In this document: one piece after another, positions 1 through 11,857 of the stretch
Layout: every line of letters begins with the position of its first letter
How positions within the stretch are numbered: position 1 is the first letter of the stretch
DNA from: a virus
Virus record (IMG/VR): IMGVR_UViG_3300023184_003291
Span: 1-26,525 of that record
DNA: 26,525 nucleotides
Reading direction: 5' to 3' (one strand)
The notes under the pieces: generated by a model
Seen by the model: only the letters and a program-made list of their open reading frames with translations
What the model was told of the DNA's origin: nothing
Database searches by the model: none
Translations under genes and position numbers: made by a program

Positions 1-927
1 GTTGATGTTTTGTTTATACCATTCATAAGTATTTTTTAATCCTTCATCTAAACTTATTTGTGATTTCCATCCCAACTTATTAATCTTACTGACATTCAAT
101 ACTTTACGCATAGTGCCGTTCGGCTTCGACTCATTCCATACAATAGGACCATTATATCCGATGACATCACAAATCTTTTCTGTCAACTCACGAATTGTTA
201 TATCTATTCCTGTTCCCACATTTATGATATCAGCACTATCATAATTCATCATACAAAAATGACATGCATCTGCCAAATCATCAACATGAAGAAATTCGCG
301 CATAGGAGTTCCATCACCCCAACATTCTACATATGATTTATCATTTATCTTTGCATCATGTATCTTACTTATAAGTGCTGGTAAAACATGTGAAGTTTTC
401 AGATTGAAATTGTCATTAATTCCATATAAATTTGTCGGCATTAATGAGATAGTCTTAAAGTTATACTGATCACGATAAGATTGGCATAACTTTATACCAG
501 CAATCTTTGCTATTGCATATGCATCATTTGTCTCTTCAAGTGGACCTGTCATCAATGATTCTTCACTAATAGGAACTTTAGCATCTTTAGGATATATACA
601 TGATGATCCTAGAAATAATACTTTTCTTACATCATATCGGTGTGATATATCAATAAGATTTGTCTGTATCATAAGGTTTTGATAAAGAAAATCACCTTTA
701 TATGTAGAGTTGGCTAGAATGCCGCCAACTTTAGCAGCAGCAATAAACACATATTCAGGGCCAGCATTTCTATAAAATAGATCAACACTTCGTCTGTGTG
801 ATAGATCATACTTTCCTCTATCAGCGGTTAGAATATTTTTATATCCTTTATTTTCCAGACATCTTACAATAGCAGAACCTACTAGCCCTGTATGCCCAGC
901 AACAAATATTCGCGAATCACTTTTCAT
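1..927 (-). CDS. fcl: GDP-L-fucose synthase (GDP-4-keto-6-deoxymannose epimerase/reductase), C-terminus cut by window
   Basis: Converts GDP-4-keto-6-deoxy-D-mannose to GDP-L-fucose with NADPH in the cytoplasm, the second step after Gmd. The reading frame is open from ATG at 927 to the window edge (309 codons, no stop), so only the last few residues are missing; E. coli Fcl is about 321 aa. An N-terminal Rossmann motif GHTGLVG (residues 11-17) binds NADP. The short-chain dehydrogenase triad is intact: S108 in GSSCIYP, and Y137 and K141 in YAIAKIAG. The family signature MPTNLYG and the [12 protein letters not shown] stretch typical of GDP-fucose synthases are also present. The start overlaps the gmd stop by 11 bp, so the two are translationally coupled. 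Family identity is very secure. Confidence 0.95.
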
Positions 928-1924
928 TTTCGCACATGTCCTTTACTAGATTTTTAAATGAGATTCGAGGTTCCCAACCAAGGACTTCTTTCGCTTTGGT
1001 GGCATTACCTAATAGTGTATCTACTTCTGTAGGCCGAAAGTATCTAGAATCAATTCTAAAGATGATTCTGTCATTATCCATACCAAGTTCATTTAATCCT
1101 TCACCATACCACTTAATATTCATACCAAAATACGGTGCTGCCTCTGAGATGAAATCTTTTACAGAATATTGTTCTCCTGTTGCAATAACAAAATCATCTG
1201 GTTTATTCTGTTGGAGCATTAGCCACATCGCACGAACAAAATCTTTAGCATGCCCCCAATCTCTTTTAGCATTTACATTACCTAGATAGATGATATTACC
1301 CTCAAGGCCATGATCTCTGATCTTACGCAGCCCATTAGTAATCTTCTTTGTTACGAATGTATCTCCTCGCCTTGGGCTTTCATGATTGAATAGTATACCA
1401 GTGCAAGCATACATGTTATATGCCTCACGATAGTTCTTTGTAATCCAATATCCATATAGTTTGGCTACACCGTATGGGCTCCTTGGATAGAATGGAGTAG
1501 TTTCGGATTGTGGAATTTCTTGCACTTTACCAAACATTTCTGATGTTGATGCTTGATATAACCGAGTATTTCTTTCCATACCAAGAATTCTAATTGCTTC
1601 GAGTAGTCTTAGTGATCCCAGACCATCGACTTGCCCAGTATATTCAGGTGTCTCAAAAGATACTTTTACATGACTCTGGGCTCCCAGATTATATATTTCA
1701 TCGGGCTGAACCTTTTTAATAATATTAATTAGATTACTTGAATCTGTCAAGTCGCCATAATGTAAATGTATATCATTATAGATATGATCTATTCTTCCTG
1801 TATTGAACGAAGAACTTCTTCGGATAATACCATGAACTTCATAATTCTTTTCAAGAAGAAGTTCGGCTAGGTAGCTTCCGTCCTGACCTGTAATGCCAGT
1901 AATTAAAGCAATCCTTTTTGACAT
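917..1924 (-). CDS. gmd: GDP-mannose 4,6-dehydratase
   Basis: Dehydrates GDP-D-mannose to GDP-4-keto-6-deoxy-D-mannose, the first committed step to GDP-L-fucose. At 335 aa it is close to the usual length of the family. It opens with the NADP-binding [14 protein letters not shown] (residues 10-23) and the [13 protein letters not shown] motif specific to GMDs. Catalytic residues are visible as T127-S128-E129 in STSEMFG and Y151xxxK155 in [12 protein letters not shown]. The C-terminal substrate region [12 protein letters not shown] is intact. It overlaps the nucleotidyltransferase gene by 1 nt and fcl by 11 nt. Gmd without Fcl can feed rhamnose or perosamine routes, but the adjacent fcl and the GT10 gene upstream argue for fucose. 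Confidence 0.96.
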
Positions 1925-2952
1925 TATATAAAATCTCCTAAATTATCAACGTCTCTTTGTATATTGATAGCTTCGGCTGATGGATATGGATTAGAATTGC
2001 TATAATCGTTTATGATTATTCTCTTAGAATGATGTATTTCCATGAGCAGATCACATTTACTAAATCCTAAGTTATCTAGCATATTCCGCGTTATATCATA
2101 ATACTTCTTTTTTCTTGCTGTCACGAAAACGATCTTAAACCCTCTGGCCTGTTTATCGACTAATACACTATGATTTTTATGCAGCAATTCATAATCAGTA
2201 TGATAACTATTTTTACCATACTGTCCCTTATTTTTAATCAGCACACCATCAATATCACATAATATTGTTGGCTTATTGTTATATTCGCGCCATGCATCAA
2301 GAGTTCCTACATTGAAATAATTATCAACATTAGTATTAATAAAGACTTCTCCACTCATAATCATATAATCTATTATATCAGAAAGAAAGATTTCTTTTTT
2401 ATTTGTTGATAGTTTTTGACATGCGATCTTATATAACTCAGGATTAGAAAACTGATATCCGCCAACACAGAAATTATCAGATACGATTCGCTTTTCTATG
2501 AGACTAGAGATTATTCCCTGGTCATTAGATATGACATAACCAAGTTGTGATACATTCTTAAGTGTTGGATAGTCTGATAACTTGGCCGTATATGCAGCAT
2601 TGCCTTCTGCGAATCTGAAATCAAAATAACTATCACAATCTTTTACTAGAAATTTTTCTGTGATATTAGCCTCCTCGATAGCACGAAGCACAGTTTCAGC
2701 CGGACCATTTGTGGGTTCATCCAGAATAATAATATTGACCTTTGCATCTCCAAAGCATTCTTCTAATATACGCTTAGATTCAAATTTCACATCATGCTCT
2801 CTGAGTATAACAATGTGTATTGTATTTCCATATTGGAGACTATTGAGTGACCTTTCAATCATCAATTGCCCATTATAGTTTGTAAGAAGATATTTTGGAC
2901 GTAGATCAGGAAAACGAGTTGATCTACCCGCACATGGCATTATTATATCCAT
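1924..2952 (-). CDS. Fusion of sugar-phosphate nucleotidyltransferase and HAD-type phosphatase domain
   Basis: Two domains are visible in 342 aa. Residues 1 to about 225 form a nucleotidyltransferase: the glycine-rich [16 protein letters not shown] (G9, R13, K20) matches the NTP-binding P-loop of RmlA/LicC-like enzymes, and KDCDSYF (D105, D107) is the metal-binding part. Residues from about 228 form a HAD-like domain with DIDGV (233-237) as the nucleophile motif, VTARKKKY as the second motif and a late [14 protein letters not shown] loop. It would activate a phosphorylated sugar or alcohol with CTP or GTP. The substrate cannot be read from sequence. It overlaps the kinase gene by 10 bp; GGAG lies 5 nt before its ATG. 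Together with that kinase it looks like a kinase-nucleotidyltransferase pair that makes a second activated donor. Confidence 0.82.
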
Positions 2953-3683
2953 AAAGACTCCACATTATTAATAATAAAAGACTGATCATGTTTAGTTCGA
3001 CAATAAGGAAATACTCTTAGTAGCATAATTATAGTGAATATATTATATTTCGCACAGTCATAATTATATGATATGGCATCATGTATTATTTTCATCTTAG
3101 CATCGAGATTAACTTTTGTATTTCGATTGAACCATCCGCATATCAAATCCTGATTCAACTTAGCAATATCAAAAACATAAGAATCATATTCGGATGTTAG
3201 TGGATCGATCATATAGAAAGAATCTTCATTCTCTCTATATATAATATTATCAAGTGTGAAGTCACCATGATATATACTTTGTGGTACCTCTTTGGGCAAT
3301 CTATCCAATAATGATTCTAATGTAAATGAAAAATATTGAAAATCTATCTGAGATAACTTATCCTGATATATTTCCGTATAATCTTTTATAGTGCTATCGG
3401 CCGAAAACTTATTGAGTGTATCGATTATAAATTCTATTAGTTTATCTGGCTTATTATACATCAAATAACTACAAACGTCAAGCCCTTTAATATATTCCAT
3501 ATCGATACAGTTATATGACGAATCGATTATCTCGGGCATTTTAACTATTGTAGAAAGGGCTTGCATTCTTTCTAAATTTCTATCAACATCAAACATCTTC
3601 CGAACAAAATAATCTTCTCCGTTCGACATCAACATAATTCTGGAATTCGAATGGCCATTCAAATCTTTTATTAATTTTTCCAT
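2943..3683 (-). CDS. Aminoglycoside phosphotransferase/choline kinase-like small-molecule kinase (LicA-like)
   Basis: The 246-aa protein carries the catalytic loop of the APH/choline kinase superfamily: HGDFTLDNII (residues 139-148), giving catalytic D141 and metal ligand N146, followed by the DFG-equivalent MIDPLTSEYDS (D160). The N-lobe has VRKMF (K29) as candidate ATP-binding lysine and MEYIKG as hinge. The lid is short compared with full-length choline kinases. It probably phosphorylates a sugar, amino alcohol or similar small substrate. The downstream overlapping gene is a nucleotidyltransferase, the same order of activities as LicA-LicC, so the product may be its substrate; that link is inference. 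The start overlaps the upstream glycosyltransferase-like gene by 13 bp. Confidence 0.78.
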   Translation of the reverse strand: MEKLIKDLNGHSNSRIMLMSNGEDYFVRKMFDVDRNLERMQALSTIVKMPEIIDSSYNCIDMEYIKGLDVCSYLMYNKPDKLIEFIIDTLNKFSADSTIKDYTEIYQDKLSQIDFQYFSFTLESLLDRLPKEVPQSIYHGDFTLDNIIYRENEDSFYMIDPLTSEYDSYVFDIAKLNQDLICGWFNRNTKVNLDAKMKIIHDAISYNYDCAKYNIFTIIMLLRVFPYCRTKHDQSFIINNVESLWI

Positions 3684-4378
3684 AATTCCATATCATCTCT
3701 GATAAGAGAATGTTTGCCGCCATTGTAAGGACCAGCAGAAAAAGGATTATTCATATCCACATAACATAGATTTTCACCAATAAGATTATTATTTCTTAAT
3801 GTAGCTTTGAGCATTTCTTCACCATTCATTTGATATCCAGCATTATAATAATCTTCCATCATATGATATGTTGACATGTATTTGTTCATTACTGATGAAC
3901 TGCCAAAAGCAAACTGATCGTTACCAAAATCTCTAGTGATAACCATACGGCAGTTAGGAATATAAATTTTAGTCTTATCCATTTTACCGAACGGTATAAC
4001 ACCATTAATAGCATAATCAAATCGCGTCTTGATTACCCAGTCATATTGATTATTTACTATTTCATTTTTGATCTTGAGCAGACATGATTGAAATAAAGAA
4101 TAATACGCATATACCATATTACTTGGTGGGAATTTTTCAGGATCAGGAGTATTTGTATATTTACTATCTAATTTTGTCTTATCAAAGATGCTTAATTCAT
4201 CTGTGATAAAATCAACTGGCTTATATAAATCGATCACATCTTTGATATCATATACTCTATTTTTCCAAGTATGAATAAAGATATCAGTATCATAATGATC
4301 TAATACATTTTTCTTTAAATATTCATATCCCTTTGCATATGATCTTGGTTGCCCTGAAATGCAGACAGCAATTTTCAT
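3671..4378 (-). CDS. Putative glycosyltransferase of uncharacterised family
   Basis: This 235-aa protein starts with a beta-strand and loop, MKIAVCISGQPRSYAKG, then DIFIHTW, a pattern seen in little-studied glycosyltransferase-like proteins of polysaccharide loci and large viruses. A YDWVIKTRFDYAI stretch (residues 112-124) supplies an R-x-D that may stand in for the metal/sugar-nucleotide DxD. A later MNGEEMLKATLR segment may hold the catalytic acid. No signal peptide or membrane segment is seen, so it should act in the cytoplasm. ATG at 4378 overlaps the GT10 stop by 4 bp (ATGA), with GGAG 10 nt upstream. The donor and acceptor are unknown, and the glycosyltransferase call rests on fold-like features and its position in the cluster. 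Confidence 0.6.
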   Translation of the reverse strand: MKIAVCISGQPRSYAKGYEYLKKNVLDHYDTDIFIHTWKNRVYDIKDVIDLYKPVDFITDELSIFDKTKLDSKYTNTPDPEKFPPSNMVYAYYSLFQSCLLKIKNEIVNNQYDWVIKTRFDYAINGVIPFGKMDKTKIYIPNCRMVITRDFGNDQFAFGSSSVMNKYMSTYHMMEDYYNAGYQMNGEEMLKATLRNNNLIGENLCYVDMNNPFSAGPYNGGKHSLIRDDMELWKN

Positions 4379-5262
4379 TTGTTGATAACTCCACGATATA
4401 CATTATTATCAAACCATGTATTGAATCTATTTAAATCTAAAACTTTATTGTTTGGATTCAGTATAGGTTGACTCAGCATTTCGTTATAATTATCATCATT
4501 AGTATCAAGAGAAATAATATGTTCTAGCATATCCGCATCTGTTTCATAATTATGTCTTGATATGAAAGCCTTTGAATTGAAGTCCATCTCGACGGTTGGG
4601 CTGCCCCAATAGATAGGAATAGTATTCATATACAATGCATGAAATAGTTTTTCTGTAACATATCCTGGATGAGATCCATTCTCATAGCAAAGATTGAACT
4701 TATGTGAACGCATAAACTCAAATTTAGTTTTTTGTGCGTTAATACCATCCCGAGGTAAAACATAACCTGTATTATTGAATAGTGGACCACCACTATCAAT
4801 CATCTTATACTTTGATATGAAATGAAACGCATCATTTCTTTCAGCACAAGATCCATTGGCCACAATGAAACTACAGAATGAAGTTTTATCACTCGCTGTG
4901 CCGGTTCTTAGAACATCTCTTATATCAGGCAAATCAATCTTATTGATATGTACCCAGTTATCAAGTACATACAAAGGCATTCTATAATGCCTAGGCATAT
5001 CCAAATGATCGAATGTAATAGCAAAATGACAATTATAATTTTGTGGTCTGCGATTCTCGCCAGTGAAGAATATCTTTACATTATGCTTTGCGTTGAATAA
5101 TCGATTCTTTACTCCAAAAGTCTCATCACAAAATATGAGATAGTCTGGATTATCATCATCACGGATAATATCATATTTCTTTGATAATGTATCAATGAAG
5201 AAATCATCAAGAGTTCCAAAATAATCAGTGAAGCCTAATCTCAATATTGGCTTAGATTGCAT
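4375..5262 (-). CDS. GT10 family alpha-1,3/1,4-fucosyltransferase
   Basis: The C-terminal half carries the GT10 donor-binding signature: KFNLCYENGSHPGYVTEKL followed by FHALYMNTIPIYWGSP (about residues 188-222), which binds GDP-fucose. An upstream IFFTGENRRP motif is also typical of the family. It would transfer L-fucose from GDP-L-fucose to a GlcNAc/Glc-type acceptor. The frame is open to an ATG at 5304, but ATG 5262 is preferred. It has AGGGA 8 nt upstream and overlaps the upstream stop by 11 bp, like its neighbours, whereas 5304 would overlap by 53 bp. With this start the protein is 295 aa. It lies in the same operon as gmd and fcl, which supply its donor. There is no membrane anchor, as in bacterial GT10 enzymes. 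Confidence 0.88.
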   Translation of the reverse strand: MQSKPILRLGFTDYFGTLDDFFIDTLSKKYDIIRDDDNPDYLIFCDETFGVKNRLFNAKHNVKIFFTGENRRPQNYNCHFAITFDHLDMPRHYRMPLYVLDNWVHINKIDLPDIRDVLRTGTASDKTSFCSFIVANGSCAERNDAFHFISKYKMIDSGGPLFNNTGYVLPRDGINAQKTKFEFMRSHKFNLCYENGSHPGYVTEKLFHALYMNTIPIYWGSPTVEMDFNSKAFISRHNYETDADMLEHIISLDTNDDNYNEMLSQPILNPNNKVLDLNRFNTWFDNNVYRGVINK

Positions 5263-5863
5263 ATACTGTATCCCTATGGCTAACATCACATTTACGATAA
5301 TCATAGTGGAACAGAAAGTCTTCTATTGAAGAATTAGTATCTTCAACTATGATTGTGGGTCTGAATGTTTCAATAGTGTTCATAGCACCCAATAATATTT
5401 TATATTCATAGCCTTCAGTATCTAACTGGATCAAATCACATTCGGGCAACATCATATCATCGATACGAAATGTGGGGACTATTGAACCTTTTGTGCTTCT
5501 GACTGTGTTCATTCCACGATTTCTTTCATGATTTCTGACAACAGAAACCATCTCATGCTTATCCCCTAATGCTCCTTGTATTTTTATAACATTGTCTATC
5601 GGGCAGTTCATGACTAGGCAATGAAAGTTCATTGGATCTGGTTCAAATGTGTATACGATACTAAACAACTGTGAGAGTAGTCTAGGAAAAATACCGCAAT
5701 AACCACCTGCTTGAACTACAACATTAAATTTCTTTGTGTGTCTAAGATATACTTCTTTATCAGAATTCTTCCAACCGTCGATGATGTCTGTAAATGCACC
5801 ATCATCCTTTATCTTATACCAATCCTTAACTCCATCGACTTCATATTCAATATTTTCTATCAT
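5252..5863 (-). CDS. FkbM family SAM-dependent methyltransferase
   Basis: The 203-aa protein matches the FkbM methyltransferase pattern. VVVQAGGYCGIFPRLLS is a modified motif I, in which the usual D/E-x-G-x-x-x-G appears as Q-A-G-G-Y-C-G. YTFEPDPMNFHCL is motif II with the acidic SAM-ribose residue. CDLIQLDTEGYEYKILLGA is the strongly conserved FkbM LD-x-E-G motif, and TIIVED follows. Such enzymes O-methylate sugars or other hydroxyls, which fits a glycan cluster. The start overlaps the upstream methyltransferase stop by 4 bp (ATGA). The acceptor is unknown, and the degenerate motif I leaves some doubt about activity. Confidence 0.85.
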   Translation of the reverse strand: MIENIEYEVDGVKDWYKIKDDGAFTDIIDGWKNSDKEVYLRHTKKFNVVVQAGGYCGIFPRLLSQLFSIVYTFEPDPMNFHCLVMNCPIDNVIKIQGALGDKHEMVSVVRNHERNRGMNTVRSTKGSIVPTFRIDDMMLPECDLIQLDTEGYEYKILLGAMNTIETFRPTIIVEDTNSSIEDFLFHYDYRKCDVSHRDTVYAI

Positions 5864-6450
5864 GGCTTGATCCAGAACCAGACAAAGTTTTTAGAATTAT
5901 TCAGAGGTGTTCTGATCCGATTAGTTTCTCTATATCGCTTGATAGCATCGACAACAAATTTTACCTGAATATCGTGCCCAAAGATATAACCATTCTTTTT
6001 AATCTTAGGATAATACAGTTCAATATCATTGTGTATGGAATCTTCTGTTTGATCTCCATCAACCAATACAAAGTCGAGAGATTCATTTGCTAATTGATCA
6101 GTTGCATCAACAGACTTCTTCTTGATAAGTTCAAATCTTTCACCAAAGGGACTCATATTTTGATGAAGTGTCTTTTCATAGCTATTCATATCTTCTTGTG
6201 TCCGAACAACATCAATAGCAGTATATGTTATATAAGGATCGATACCATATAGTTTCTTTATGTTTGGGCATGATTCTAATAATACATGACTAGTCTCACC
6301 CTTCAGCACACCAATCTCTGCTCCAATCACATCACCTCTCATCCGATTGATATATGAAATCATTCCATATGCTGGAAGAAATGTAAGTGGCCATAGTCCG
6401 ATCTGTTTCTGCTGTTCAATATTGAAAAATTCTGGATTATCAGTTATCAT
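5860..6450 (-). CDS. Class I SAM-dependent methyltransferase
   Basis: Rossmann methyltransferase features are clear in 196 aa: motif I GAEIGVLKGETSHVLLE, an acidic strand KLYGIDPY, and motif IV SLDFVLVDGDQTEDSIHNDI followed by YYPKIKKNGYIFGHDI. The VDGDQTEDSIHNDIELYYPKIKKNG arrangement (acidic, H, then the K-x-G-G/Y-like turn) resembles the Methyltransf_24/cephalosporin hydroxylase-like group, often found in sugar clusters. It probably methylates a sugar hydroxyl, though the substrate is not readable. ATG 6450 overlaps the stop of the upstream gene by 11 bp, with GAGG about 6 nt before it. It is the second of two consecutive methyltransferase genes, so the glycan may be methylated at more than one position. 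Confidence 0.78.
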   Translation of the reverse strand: MITDNPEFFNIEQQKQIGLWPLTFLPAYGMISYINRMRGDVIGAEIGVLKGETSHVLLESCPNIKKLYGIDPYITYTAIDVVRTQEDMNSYEKTLHQNMSPFGERFELIKKKSVDATDQLANESLDFVLVDGDQTEDSIHNDIELYYPKIKKNGYIFGHDIQVKFVVDAIKRYRETNRIRTPLNNSKNFVWFWIKP

Positions 6451-7360
6451 ATAATGCCTCGATCTTTTTCTTTAATTCTGGAATTCTATCATATTGATGG
6501 ACGATAGCGAAAGGTTTATTATTTGGATCAGTAACAACACCATCTTCGTGAATTGTAGGCTGTTCATCCTGATATGCGAGTTTATATAGAACTAACTGTG
6601 TAGGATCATTACTTACGATCTGTCCGATATCACCATGGCCCGCTAAAATAGCCTGTTCTGTTGTACCAAGTTGAATTGCCCATCCACGAGGATATCCTGA
6701 AAAATTAGTCGTCTTATGTATAATCTTATCATCACAATATGGATACTGATTGATAAGAAAATTGAATACTGCTTGATCAACGATAGGAATAGGCCGATTG
6801 ACACTCATTTGGAATATCATCAGCAACAAATCTTTTATATAAGAAAAGTCACCACCAATAGTTCCGACATTATATATAAGGTTCTCTTTCAGTATATTAT
6901 GAAAATATGGACCGAATGTTTCTAATAAATTCTTATTGCCCCATGGTTCATCCTTATACTTCAATCCCTCGGATGAACAAACAATTTTTCTATTACTAAG
7001 ATTGTTTTCTAACCAATCAGAAGGATTTGTTTGGAATATAACATCGCGGGTATCTGTAGTGATCACATATCGATAATCTCTTGGATTGAGTTCACATAGA
7101 GTATTCCACATATAGAAAAATCTTTCGGTGTGTGGTGCACCATTACTCTGAGCCTTGAAACCACCATTCTTTTCTTTATCGCCATATAGAGCAAGTTTGA
7201 CACCGCGTTGAGTCAATTTATCTATAGTTTCTTTAGAAATATTAGTAGCTACAAGAACAACATCTCCTGTAAATCCAGACTTGGCAATCGAGTTGACCCA
7301 ATACTTTAATTGGTCCCAAGAGTAATTAGATGCTCCGCCGATGATGATGTCTTTTGCCAA
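6440..7360 (-). CDS. Putative GT-A type glycosyltransferase, TTG start
   Basis: A 306-aa protein with a beta-alpha-beta start (DIIIGGASNYSWDQLKYWVNS) and a DTRD metal-binding-like motif in YVITTDTRDVIFQTNP (residues 103-106). An NVGTIGG stretch and a PIVDQAVFN segment follow, as in glycosyltransferases that read nucleotide-sugar through DxD. The start is a TTG at 7360. Two things support it: GGAG lies 7 nt upstream, and the first in-frame ATG comes only about 84 codons later, which would remove the nucleotide-binding fold. It overlaps the upstream GT2 gene by 55 bp, the longest overlap in the cluster. The family is not one I can name with certainty. Confidence 0.62.
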   Translation of the reverse strand: MAKDIIIGGASNYSWDQLKYWVNSIAKSGFTGDVVLVATNISKETIDKLTQRGVKLALYGDKEKNGGFKAQSNGAPHTERFFYMWNTLCELNPRDYRYVITTDTRDVIFQTNPSDWLENNLSNRKIVCSSEGLKYKDEPWGNKNLLETFGPYFHNILKENLIYNVGTIGGDFSYIKDLLLMIFQMSVNRPIPIVDQAVFNFLINQYPYCDDKIIHKTTNFSGYPRGWAIQLGTTEQAILAGHGDIGQIVSNDPTQLVLYKLAYQDEQPTIHEDGVVTDPNNKPFAIVHQYDRIPELKKKIEALYDN

Positions 7361-8109
7361 GGATATTCTCCATTATAATGTTGTTTCACTGATTCGTTGC
7401 CTTTGATAAAAAAATCAAGACTACCATACTTCTTTTCCATATTGTCATCAAGTCTATAATTCATCGTATGAAGACCTGATGTATCATAATTTGTATTACC
7501 CATTACTTTACTAATGATATGATAAAATCTTCTATCACCGCCCCAACCAGAGTGCCAATGATTACATACTTTAGTCAGAAATGAAGTTTTGAATATATAT
7601 GATGAGGTGTCGATAAGAAATTCTTGATCTAATTCTTTCTTTGATAGAGACCAATGGATTGGCCATTTGCCAAGACTTTCACAGTTGTCTTCAATGATAA
7701 ATTCACCATTCTTTCCATGGATGTTTCGGAGAGAATACGCCCAATCTAGATTCTTATCTTCTATTGTTGCGACCAAAGTTTTGATATGATCTCTTTCATA
7801 CCAGTTATCTTCATCGAGAAAAGCAATATAATCCGAATTAATAAGATGAGGATATCCAGCATAGATACGATGCCCATAGAATCCATCACCGCCTGTGTTT
7901 TCAGGAGCAATTGTTACTTGGAGATGTGTATTATATTCTGAAATATTAAGGGCAGTTACTTTATTCAAATATTCTGGGCCATCGACAACTACAAGATGCT
8001 TAATGTTCTTATATGTTTGGGTATTCACACTTTCAATTGCTTGAGTTAAATATTCTTGCCCGATTGTAGGCGTAATAACTGTTACAGACTTTTCTATGTT
8101 CAACTTCAT
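7306..8109 (-). CDS. Family 2 (GT-A) glycosyltransferase
   Basis: Classic GT2 N-terminus: VTVITPTIGQEYLTQAIESVNTQTYKNI, with HLVVVDGPE as the strand carrying the nucleotide-binding aspartate. The metal-binding motif is FLDEDNWYERDHIKTL (D99-E100-D101). The C-terminal part has WHSGWGGDRRFYH, where the acidic residue may act as base. At 267 aa it is a single catalytic domain without membrane anchor. The start at 8109 shares one base with the upstream stop (TAATG). It probably adds one sugar to the glycan built by this operon. Donor and acceptor are unknown. Confidence 0.85.
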   Translation of the reverse strand: MKLNIEKSVTVITPTIGQEYLTQAIESVNTQTYKNIKHLVVVDGPEYLNKVTALNISEYNTHLQVTIAPENTGGDGFYGHRIYAGYPHLINSDYIAFLDEDNWYERDHIKTLVATIEDKNLDWAYSLRNIHGKNGEFIIEDNCESLGKWPIHWSLSKKELDQEFLIDTSSYIFKTSFLTKVCNHWHSGWGGDRRFYHIISKVMGNTNYDTSGLHTMNYRLDDNMEKKYGSLDFFIKGNESVKQHYNGEYPWQKTSSSAEHLITLGTN

Positions 8110-8896: not shown

Positions 8897-8946
8897 GTTA
8901 AAAACAAATAAAAAAGATGGTGGCATATTGTGTAAGCCACCATCTT
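8897..8946 (-). terminator. Rho-independent terminator after hsp20
   Basis: An 11-bp perfect stem (8914-8924 with 8936-8946, AAGATGGTGGC and its complement) encloses an 11-nt loop. On the minus strand it is followed by TTTTTT, then ATTTG and TTTTT. It lies 16 bp past the hsp20 stop, making hsp20 a single-gene unit. Confidence 0.9.
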
Positions 8947-8962
8947 GTGACTTCACATGCAG

Positions 8963-9463
8963 TTAAATGCCGCCGGTTGTTTTTTCTGTTAGAAACTCTT
9001 TAGTGGATGTAGTTTCTTCTCCGTTGATATTAATCTTCTTAGCCTTCTTCTCTTCAGGAATAAAGCGTTCAAGCCAAATCTTAAGCATACCATTGATAAG
9101 ATCAGCATTCTTGATCTCGACAGAATCAGCAAGAGAGAACTTGCGAGTGAATGCACGATCCGCAATACCCTTGAAGATATAATCTGTATCAGGAGCATCT
9201 GCTGTTATCTGGCCCTTGACTGTTAGTGTTCCCTCTAATAGTTCCAATTCAAGGTCTTGCTTGCCGAAACCTGCAACAGCGATTTCAATAGTATATTTGT
9301 TATCGCCGACCTTCTTGATATTATAAGGCGGATAAGTTGGAATCTTTGGGATTGTTTCTGAGAATTCGCCCAGTTTCTTGAATAAAGAATCAAAACCAAC
9401 AGTTGACTTTGATAGACCAGGGAAATCAAAAGGATTAAAGTGTGGGATTGAATTGATAGACAT
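8963..9463 (-). CDS. hsp20: Small heat shock protein, Hsp20/IbpA (alpha-crystallin) family
   Basis: ATP-independent chaperone that binds unfolding proteins in the cytoplasm. The N-terminal arm has SKSTVGFDSLFKKL, as in IbpA. The alpha-crystallin domain runs from about YPPYNIKKVGDNKYTIEIAV to the AFTRKFSL and NGMLKIWLER motifs, and the I-x-I-like tail is KKININ. ATG 9463 (166 aa) is preferred because GGAG is 9 nt upstream; an in-frame ATG at 9469 would be only 3 nt from the GGAG. Hsp20 genes are known accessory genes of T4-like phages, where they may help virion assembly. It is flanked by its own strong promoter and terminator, with a structured leader over its ribosome-binding site. Confidence 0.93.
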   Translation of the reverse strand: MSINSIPHFNPFDFPGLSKSTVGFDSLFKKLGEFSETIPKIPTYPPYNIKKVGDNKYTIEIAVAGFGKQDLELELLEGTLTVKGQITADAPDTDYIFKGIADRAFTRKFSLADSVEIKNADLINGMLKIWLERFIPEEKKAKKININGEETTSTKEFLTEKTTGGI

Positions 9464-9469
9464 ATACAT

Positions 9470-9555
9470 ATTCTCCTATAATTAGCGAGGGTTACAATAA
9501 TGTTCTTCCTTAGTAGGCAAGAACATGTTGGGTACGCAATACTTGATCCCAACAG
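9470..9555 (-). promoter_or_regulatory. ROSE-like RNA thermometer in hsp20 5' leader
   Basis: On the minus-strand RNA three hairpins fill the leader. HP1 (9527-9553) has a GUUGGG/CCCAAC stem. HP2 (9500-9526) has an 8-bp AUGUUCUU/AAGAACAU stem extended by CCU/AGG after one bulged G. HP3 (9473-9489) pairs CUCGCU with AGGAG, leaving one G bulged, with a further A-U pair and a 4-nt loop. HP3 reproduces the ROSE hallmark, U-Y-G-C-U facing A-G-G-A with a bulged G, on the Shine-Dalgarno sequence. ROSE elements control hsp20 genes of rhizobia and other bacteria. The start point predicted from the promoter is within a few bases of HP1. Confidence 0.75.
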
Positions 9556-9558
9556 ATA

Positions 9559-9589
9559 TATTTATATCACATTTTTATCAAGTTGTCAA
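9559..9589 (-). promoter_or_regulatory. hsp20 promoter, sigma-70 type with overlapping T4 late-type box
   Basis: TTGACA (9584-9589), a 17-bp spacer and TATAAA (9561-9566) match the sigma-70 consensus on the minus strand. The octamer TATAAATA at 9559-9566 is identical to the T4 late promoter -10 box. The gene could therefore be read both early and late. The late use is inference, since this phage's own late consensus is unknown. Confidence 0.82.
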
Positions 9590-11455: not shown

Positions 11456-11857
11456 TTAATACTCTTTTTTAGAACCTATCGAATACTTAGTGACAAGGGT
11501 CCACTCACTCTTTTCTTTATAAGGCAACACTTTGATTTGACTCAGAGAAGCAACAGGATCGGCACTCTTTGCTGGATCAACCAGATCAACTAATTGCCAC
11601 TCATCAAGAAGATTTGCGATAGTATTTCGTCTTGCTTTATCATCAAGAGAAAAATCAGACTTTTTACCATCCAGTAAAAACAATTCTTTAAAATGAATGA
11701 TATAATATTTGCCCTGCTTATGTAGAATGTGACATGATTGATATAATGTATTATCTTTCTTAGATGCAATACCGATGCGAGAAAGAGTTTCTTTCACTTT
11801 CAAAAAATTATCAGGTTCTGGTAGAGTTACCTCGATTAATTCGGTTAGGTTTATCAT
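11456..11857 (-). CDS. regA: RegA translational repressor of early genes
   Basis: RNA-binding protein that covers ribosome-binding sites of phage early mRNAs and lowers their translation. The 133-aa sequence tracks T4 RegA along its length: DNFLKVKETLSRIGIASKKD, then TLYQSCHILHKQGKYYIIHF and KELFLLDGKK, then EWTLVTKYSIGSKK at the end. It has about seven extra N-terminal residues relative to T4. The start overlaps the gp62 3' end by 47 bp, so RegA is made from a frame inside gp62, and AAGGTGGA precedes its ATG. T4 has the same order, 44-62-regA. A similar GGTGGATTG sequence precedes the GIY-YIG gene start and may be a shared target, which is speculative. Confidence 0.95.
   Translation of the reverse strand: MINLTELIEVTLPEPDNFLKVKETLSRIGIASKKDNTLYQSCHILHKQGKYYIIHFKELFLLDGKKSDFSLDDKARRNTIANLLDEWQLVDLVDPAKSADPVASLSQIKVLPYKEKSEWTLVTKYSIGSKKEY

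Follow-up and report, generated by a model that had tools for sequence, protein, structure and literature searches.

ROSE-like RNA thermometers are defined by a U(U/C)GCU motif and a bulged G (PMC3669281, PMC11182007), and those that have been studied act as repressors at low temperature, opening as the temperature rises (PMC3669281). The ROSE-like elements of Pseudomonas ibpA genes are made of two hairpins, a stable 5' one, which stays closed, and a short one that contains the Shine-Dalgarno (SD) sequence, the U(U/C)GCU motif and the bulged G; the SD hairpin alone suffices, and deletion of the single bulged G abolishes induction in the P. aeruginosa element (PMC3669281). ROSE1 of Bradyrhizobium hspA has four hairpins (PMC3669281) and, like other rhizobial ROSE elements, places a bulged G opposite the SD of class A hsp genes. 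The E. coli ibpA thermometer, the type represented by Rfam family RF01832 (ROSE_2), also precedes a class A small heat-shock gene; its SD stem reads CUC-G-CU/AG-GAG, and further upstream lies a stable hairpin with a bulged G and a CC-UGAU-GG cap. In phages, the leaders described as being under temperature control are those of lambda cIII, of SPbeta blyA (a fourU element) and of a sigma-70 gene of gut Caudoviricetes, the last being a candidate (PMC10586365, PMC11182007). These are not ROSE elements and belong to other genes, and that of lambda cIII closes on warming rather than opening.

Phage hsp20 is a core gene in cyanophages, and its use, heat protection or capsid maturation, is debated (PMC7674155). 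Papers on the cyanophage Hsp20 protein do not discuss the leader of the gene, and a SAR11 survey mentions one possible thermometer (PMC6429828). In agreement with a statement of the initial annotation of the DNA analysed here, we found no phage ROSE element in the open-licence literature on ROSE and RNA thermometers, and phages thus apparently represent a new and widespread setting for a known kind of RNA, undescribed there until now.

The predicted hsp20 transcription unit and its leader

The window, that is, the whole 26.5-kb stretch of DNA analysed, is an IMG/VR record of a virus of aquatic bacteria, with a T4-like gene set, which includes the clamp loader proteins gp44 and gp62, the sliding clamp gp45, a RegA-like repressor, a dUTPase and a SMC/RecF-type ATPase. 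Its hsp20 gene encodes a small heat-shock protein that matches Pfam HSP20 (PF00011; E = 1.1e-15) and PHROG 432 (Hsp20; E = 4.9e-37). The features of the locus are as follows, in the order of transcription.

9561 to 9589, minus strand: sigma-70-type promoter TTGACA-N17-TATAAA (TTGACA 9589-9584, TATAAA 9566-9561), read directly
9526 to 9554, minus strand: hairpin 1, UGUUGGG-AUCAAGUAUUGCGUA-CCCAACA, from fold and comparison
9501 to 9525, minus strand: hairpin 2, UGUUCUU-G-CC-UACUAA-GG-AAGAACA, from fold and comparison
9473 to 9489, minus strand: hairpin 3, the ROSE core, CUC-G-CU-AAUUAU-AG-GAG, from fold and comparison
8963 to 9463, minus strand: hsp20 coding sequence, class A small heat-shock protein, with an open frame extending to ATG 9469, from Pfam and PHROG
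8909 to 8946, minus strand: terminator-like hairpin AAGAUGGUGGC-N11-GCCACCAUCUU-U6, read directly

The promoter would place the transcription start near 9554, and the leader, of about 90 nt (minus strand, about 9554-9464), is predicted to fold into three hairpins. The last of these pairs the anti-SD strand CUCGCU (9489-9484) with the SD AGGAG (9477-9473): CUC (9489-9487) and CU (9485-9484) form the stem around G 9486, which is unpaired in the fold, and the loop covers 9483-9478. In hairpin 2, the stem of which is stable, a single G (9518) bulges out two pairs beneath the loop. The coordinates and letters of leader and promoter, as initially annotated, proved correct on re-reading, and fold and letters bear out the three hairpins, the pairing of CUCGCU with AGGAG around one bulged G, the promoter and the leader length.

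Two ATG codons may serve as the hsp20 start. The annotated one (9469) lies 3 nt from AGGAG, whereas ATG 9463-9461 lies 9 nt from it; because of this spacing, and because relatives such as L001 have their start at the aligned position, ATG 9463 appears the likelier start. At the other end, the terminator-like hairpin suggests a closed, apparently monocistronic unit; its N11 loop puts it outside the range of our terminator scan, which was restricted to loops of at most 8 nt. Further 3' of hsp20 lies an extended block of sugar-nucleotide and glycosyltransferase-like genes (917-8109, minus strand), among which the GDP-mannose 4,6-dehydratase at 917-1924 is identified with an E-value of 3e-146 and the others were assigned by eye.

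The SD stem and bulge of the window are identical in letters to those of E. coli ibpA, of which the stable bulged-G hairpin is the counterpart of hairpin 2, but in E. coli the leader has a greater length, with additional hairpins separating the two, and is under sigma-32 control, whereas the phage leader has a sigma-70-type promoter and scores far below the Rfam cut-off. The window also shares with the Pseudomonas ibpA elements a stable 5' hairpin and a short one in which the SD, the U(U/C)GCU motif and the bulged G come together, and a Pseudomonas-like sequence (L090) has the same bulged-G hairpin as hairpin 2. The layout is that of the short Pseudomonas element plus one extra hairpin, three in place of two; the Pseudomonas elements are bacterial, are under sigma-32 control and have a function shown by experiment. 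With ROSE1, a comparison that rests on the literature, the window shares the bulged G opposite the SD and the class A gene, but it has three hairpins as against four. The initial annotation had described the element as a ROSE of the rhizobial type: the bulged-G pairing of the SD holds, but it is not specifically rhizobial, the letters of the SD stem being those of E. coli ibpA.

Conservation of the bulged-G hairpins in phages and bacteria

The minimum free energy of the whole leader is -22.4 kcal/mol (z = -2.05), a predicted value that is by itself suggestive but weak. We therefore relied on comparison, gathering hsp20 relatives with four protein queries (those of the window, P-SSM4, HTVC008M and HTVC115P) and adding isolates and the nearest cellular matches, which gave 179 distinct hsp20 leaders, 171 of them from virus records and 8 from bacterial assemblies. 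Under a fixed criterion, a bulged-G SD hairpin is found in 170 of the 179 leaders, as against 11 of 371 SD-bearing control genes of the same contigs (3%) and a mean of 11.2 of 179 after shuffling. It is this comparison, and not the folding energy, which places the hairpin above chance. Among the nine leaders that failed, that of L079 did so solely through a wrong choice of start, and a covariance model matches it, while in L265 the ROSE-type element sits before a small upstream gene. In the L187-L194 group the related stem reads UAACUGUCUAAACAAGGAGGUUA, in which a G.A mismatch probably replaces the bulge. The leaders with this stem come from HTVC008M-like phages (L187, L188, L189, L192 and L194) and constitute a natural variant that bears on the role of the bulge.

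The ROSE-type element of L265 (1180-1241) and that of L256 (1189-1250) precede a small frame of 71-79 aa directly 5' of hsp20, which suggests a bicistronic unit; the product of this frame may be phasin-like.

Stem letters change in a compensated way on both sides of the SD hairpin. CUUGCU..AGGAG becomes CUUGCA..UGGAG in L014, L024 and L054, and the bulged G is retained in the compensated stems of HTVC103P (AUCGCUU..AAGGAU) and S-TIM5 (CCACGCUU..AAGGUGG). For 65 model-aligned leaders, both-side changes occur in 244 cells, versus 73 in shuffles, and the covariation score is 0.571, versus 0.158 after shuffling and at most 0.117 with the partners slid. Because this alignment was fitted to the structure, the unaligned tests of the SD hairpin and of hairpin 2 are fairer. 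For the latter, an upstream bulged-G hairpin with at least four stem pairs is present in 89% of leaders and 10.6% of shuffles, an enrichment specific to G, as other bulged letters show none. All four Watson-Crick pair types occur at most of its stem positions, and the changes are always around the bulged G and a C-Y/R-G cap. The covariation that the initial annotation had proposed to look for in related phages was thus found, in the compensated SD stems. These results leave a negligible probability to a fortuitous complementarity between a purine-rich SD and a run of pyrimidines; the modest z-score of the single-sequence fold (-2.05) and the lack of a Rfam match at cut-off would agree with such an accident, which is refuted by the comparison, that is, by conservation, covariation and specificity.

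Searches with existing and new models converge on the same position. At the curated Rfam cut-offs, no ROSE match was obtained in the window or 20 relatives, a tRNA being the sole match, and the E-value mode on 12 short loci returned noise and no ROSE match. The window leader scores 17.5 bits with ROSE_2 (RF01832, cut-off 65) and 16.2 bits with ROSE_3 (RF02523, cut-off 43); it is below the gathering cut-off and so outside both families as curated, and the significant match envisaged initially as an Infernal check did not materialize. Among all Rfam families, the sub-threshold ROSE_2 and ROSE_3 matches fall on the correct spot in the window, and hsp20 leaders account for the five best ROSE_3 matches, as well as for ROSE_2 ranks 1, 2 and 4, in 30 phage records. 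We also built a covariance model of hairpins 2 and 3 (R1) from 17 phage leaders, the window being excluded; this gap-free set was chosen because a MAFFT alignment of 26 leaders, with their varying loop lengths, misaligned the SDs. R1 matches the window at 9525-9467 with 27.7 bits (E = 1.2e-4 in 539 kb), and in 0.79 Mb its matches are nearly all hsp20 leaders, even at E-values up to 10. It misses the S-TIM5 leader, despite the compensated bulged-G hairpin there. A second match in S-PRM1, before the next gene, was discarded as a false positive, with a hairpin-2-like stem only and no ROSE motif. R1 also gives a weak match (14.5 bits) to the E. coli ibpB leader (CUCGCUUCUUAGAAGGAG, L292 402-475, minus strand).

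A scan of IMG/VR with the motif CTYGCTTAANNAGGAGN7ATG, in which hsp20 was not chosen beforehand, identified 80 loci. An hsp20 frame lies directly 3' in 67 of them; eight others run into a contig end, several after an Hsp20-like beginning, and the remaining five, four of which are near-identical, precede something else.

The element is carried by cyanophages (P-SSM4, S-CRM01, S-CAM1, S-PRM1, S-BM3, S-CREM1, Syn19, P-TIM40, P-RSM1 and S-RIM12), Pelagibacter phages (HTVC008M, HTVC103P, HTVC115P and Mosig), the Methylophilales phage Melnitz and the sequenced phage C48C1 (host unstated). Synechococcus phage DSL-LC02 (L087) is without the ROSE hairpin, its SD being in a different stem. Judging from these leaders, a putative ROSE-type switch is present before hsp20 in most of the related freshwater and marine phages.

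The initial annotation had hinted at an alphaproteobacterial origin for gene and leader. In 240 genomes of that class, 8 of the 11 R1 matches, from SAR11, Commensalibacter and others, fall on hsp20 leaders, and for SAR11 the neighbouring genes confirm a chromosomal setting. We compared 37 close bacterial hsp20 genes; an SD hairpin that satisfies the test is present in 31 and a bulged-G hairpin 2 in 28, so that both the R1 matches and a two-hairpin layout in 28 to 31 of these genes attest homology with bacterial ROSE leaders. In the protein tree, 25 phage proteins form a well-supported clade, within which the window Hsp20 lies nearest to L001 and L016; phages and bacteria interleave only in deep, weakly supported parts. 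Cyanophage small heat-shock proteins have been reported to form one clade, nearer to bacterial class A than to cyanobacterial proteins (PMC3827213). In our tree no one bacterial group stands out as the neighbour of the all-phage clade, so the alphaproteobacterial origin is not borne out; plausibly, gene and leader entered phages together from bacteria bearing class A proteins.

Hairpins of the type of hairpin 2 also occur among proteobacterial hsp20 leaders, those of E. coli ibpA and SAR11 included, so that a bulged G appears twice per leader, in hairpins 2 and 3, in phages and bacteria alike. This conserved second bulged-G hairpin points to a poorly understood part of ROSE elements.

Sequence, structure and position together make a strong case that the phage leaders contain a real, conserved ROSE-type element: the leader of a small heat-shock gene, with a series of two to four hairpins, stable on the 5' side (three predicted in the window, hairpin 2 being conserved), and a 3'-proximal hairpin in which U(U/C)GCU is paired imperfectly with the SD around a bulged G (CUCGCU/AGGAG). 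Structure, position, covariation, spread among phages and homology with proteobacterial ROSE leaders are direct observations. As for the initial interpretation as a whole, its ROSE-type architecture, promoter, covariation and translational control at the SD are supported, while a significant Rfam match is missing.

Probable thermal and possible protein-mediated control of hsp20

Most probably the leader works as an RNA thermometer of the ROSE (or ROSE-like) type, by which translation of the phage hsp20 is kept off. By analogy with the elements studied in bacteria, it would repress when cool, melt on warming and need its bulged G. The strong sigma-70-type promoter would yield a leader of roughly 90 nt, the last hairpin of which would bury the SD against CUCGCU, the bulged G keeping the stem weak, whereas the stable hairpin 2 and hairpin 1 would help the RNA to fold or keep the mRNA stable. 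On warming, and perhaps also on loss of bound Hsp20, hairpin 3 would then open and allow ribosome entry, and the chaperone would be made on demand during infection. If this is true, hundreds of phages control the translation of hsp20, one of the commonest genes of aquatic phages, in response to stress; since cultured phage-host pairs are among them, when and why phages make Hsp20 would be directly testable.

In ViennaRNA calculations, the probability that the window SD is unpaired rises from 0.01 at 20 C to 0.06 at 42 C and 0.12 at 50 C, but the trend obtained for the E. coli ibpA control is wrong, and such calculations therefore neither support nor refute melting. For the isolated hairpin, two-state estimates put melting at about 45 C when the bulged G is present and at 69 C when it is absent; they were not relied on, because they depend on the pairs counted.

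The usefulness of a heat signal is not obvious, because the water that many of these phages inhabit is thermally buffered. The leader might instead be chiefly an autoregulatory, aggregation-sensing operator, through which phage Hsp20 would repress its own mRNA until titrated by misfolded protein, melting being secondary or absent; we hold this to be possible but rather doubtful. There is a precedent in E. coli IbpA, which binds and represses its own mRNA via the 5'UTR, with R93 irreplaceable and R97/K98 and the aromatic residue 34 contributing (PMC10474464). The window Hsp20 has equivalents of Y34, R93, R97 and K98 of this patch, and the phage Hsp20s keep R93 (171/172), R/K97 (171/172) and Y/F34 (172/172), R93 being absent from E. 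coli IbpB. Moreover, hairpin 2, distant from the SD, is strongly conserved with its bulged G, as would be expected of a protein site. On the other hand, class A small heat-shock proteins may have kept R93 on other grounds, many phage Hsp20s have a non-basic residue at position 98, and autoregulation is compatible with melting, as E. coli ibpA has both. On the E. coli analogy, Hsp20 autoregulation would thus be a live alternative or addition to the thermometer, and a second input is likely enough to be stated. Along these lines, it is conceivable, if somewhat speculative, that aquatic tailed phages, marine cyanophages and pelagiphages among them, keep a riboregulator of bacterial origin and its chaperone as a heat-shock cassette that senses proteostasis in the infected cell, the tandem bulged-G hairpins serving melting and Hsp20 binding; chaperone output would then track the load of unfolded capsid or host protein, and not the weather.

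The SD hairpin could also be a constitutive damper, or the target of another phage regulator such as RegA, and sense nothing. The window does encode a RegA-like translation repressor (11456-11857, PHROG 242), and regA is just upstream of hsp20 in S-CRM01 and S-CAM1. However, the same hairpin is found in the Pelagibacter phages HTVC115P and HTVC103P (about 54 kb, not placed in Kyanoviridae) and in bacterial hsp20 leaders, the bulged G is retained where stem letters change, and the element is specific to hsp20 and not common to other early genes, which makes a sensorless hairpin of this kind improbable.

Promoters, hairpin 1 and tRNA-like stretches

Whichever the control of translation, promoters differ among phage types. 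Sigma-70-type promoters with at most 2/12 mismatches stand before 68% of the window-type hsp20 leaders and 59% of those of the HTVC115P type, as against 3-4% of shuffles, which supports the promoter initially annotated. The same scan found no enrichment in P-SSM4-type leaders, in which a TAAATA box that resembles a T4-type late promoter lies 5' of hairpin 2. The promoter would accordingly have been swapped while the leader RNA was kept, and it seems that the promoter class changes and the RNA element stays. The -10 region of the window (9559-9566, minus strand) reads TATAAATA, which is also the T4 late-promoter consensus.

Hairpin 1 is restricted to the phage clade of the window and is composed of a covarying stem, in about 20 distinct versions, around the same nearly invariant 15-nt loop (AUNANGUNNUGCGUA). 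Of the 11 stem-forming copies found in viral DNA, eight have a ROSE hairpin downstream of them, in each case followed by hsp20 (8/8). Possible roles of hairpin 1 are those of a 5'-end stabiliser or a protein site.

In L012, L015 and L021, a tRNA-like stretch (GCGGGR...YCCCGC-UCCA), in which ARAGORN calls no tRNA, lies between hairpins 1 and 2, from about 150 to 80 bases 5' of hsp20, and the sequence ends of L008, L009 and L013 resemble it. The layout looks as if the hsp20 leader were freed by tRNA-type processing. In L054, a true tRNA-Met (2849-2925) is located directly 5' of hairpin 2.
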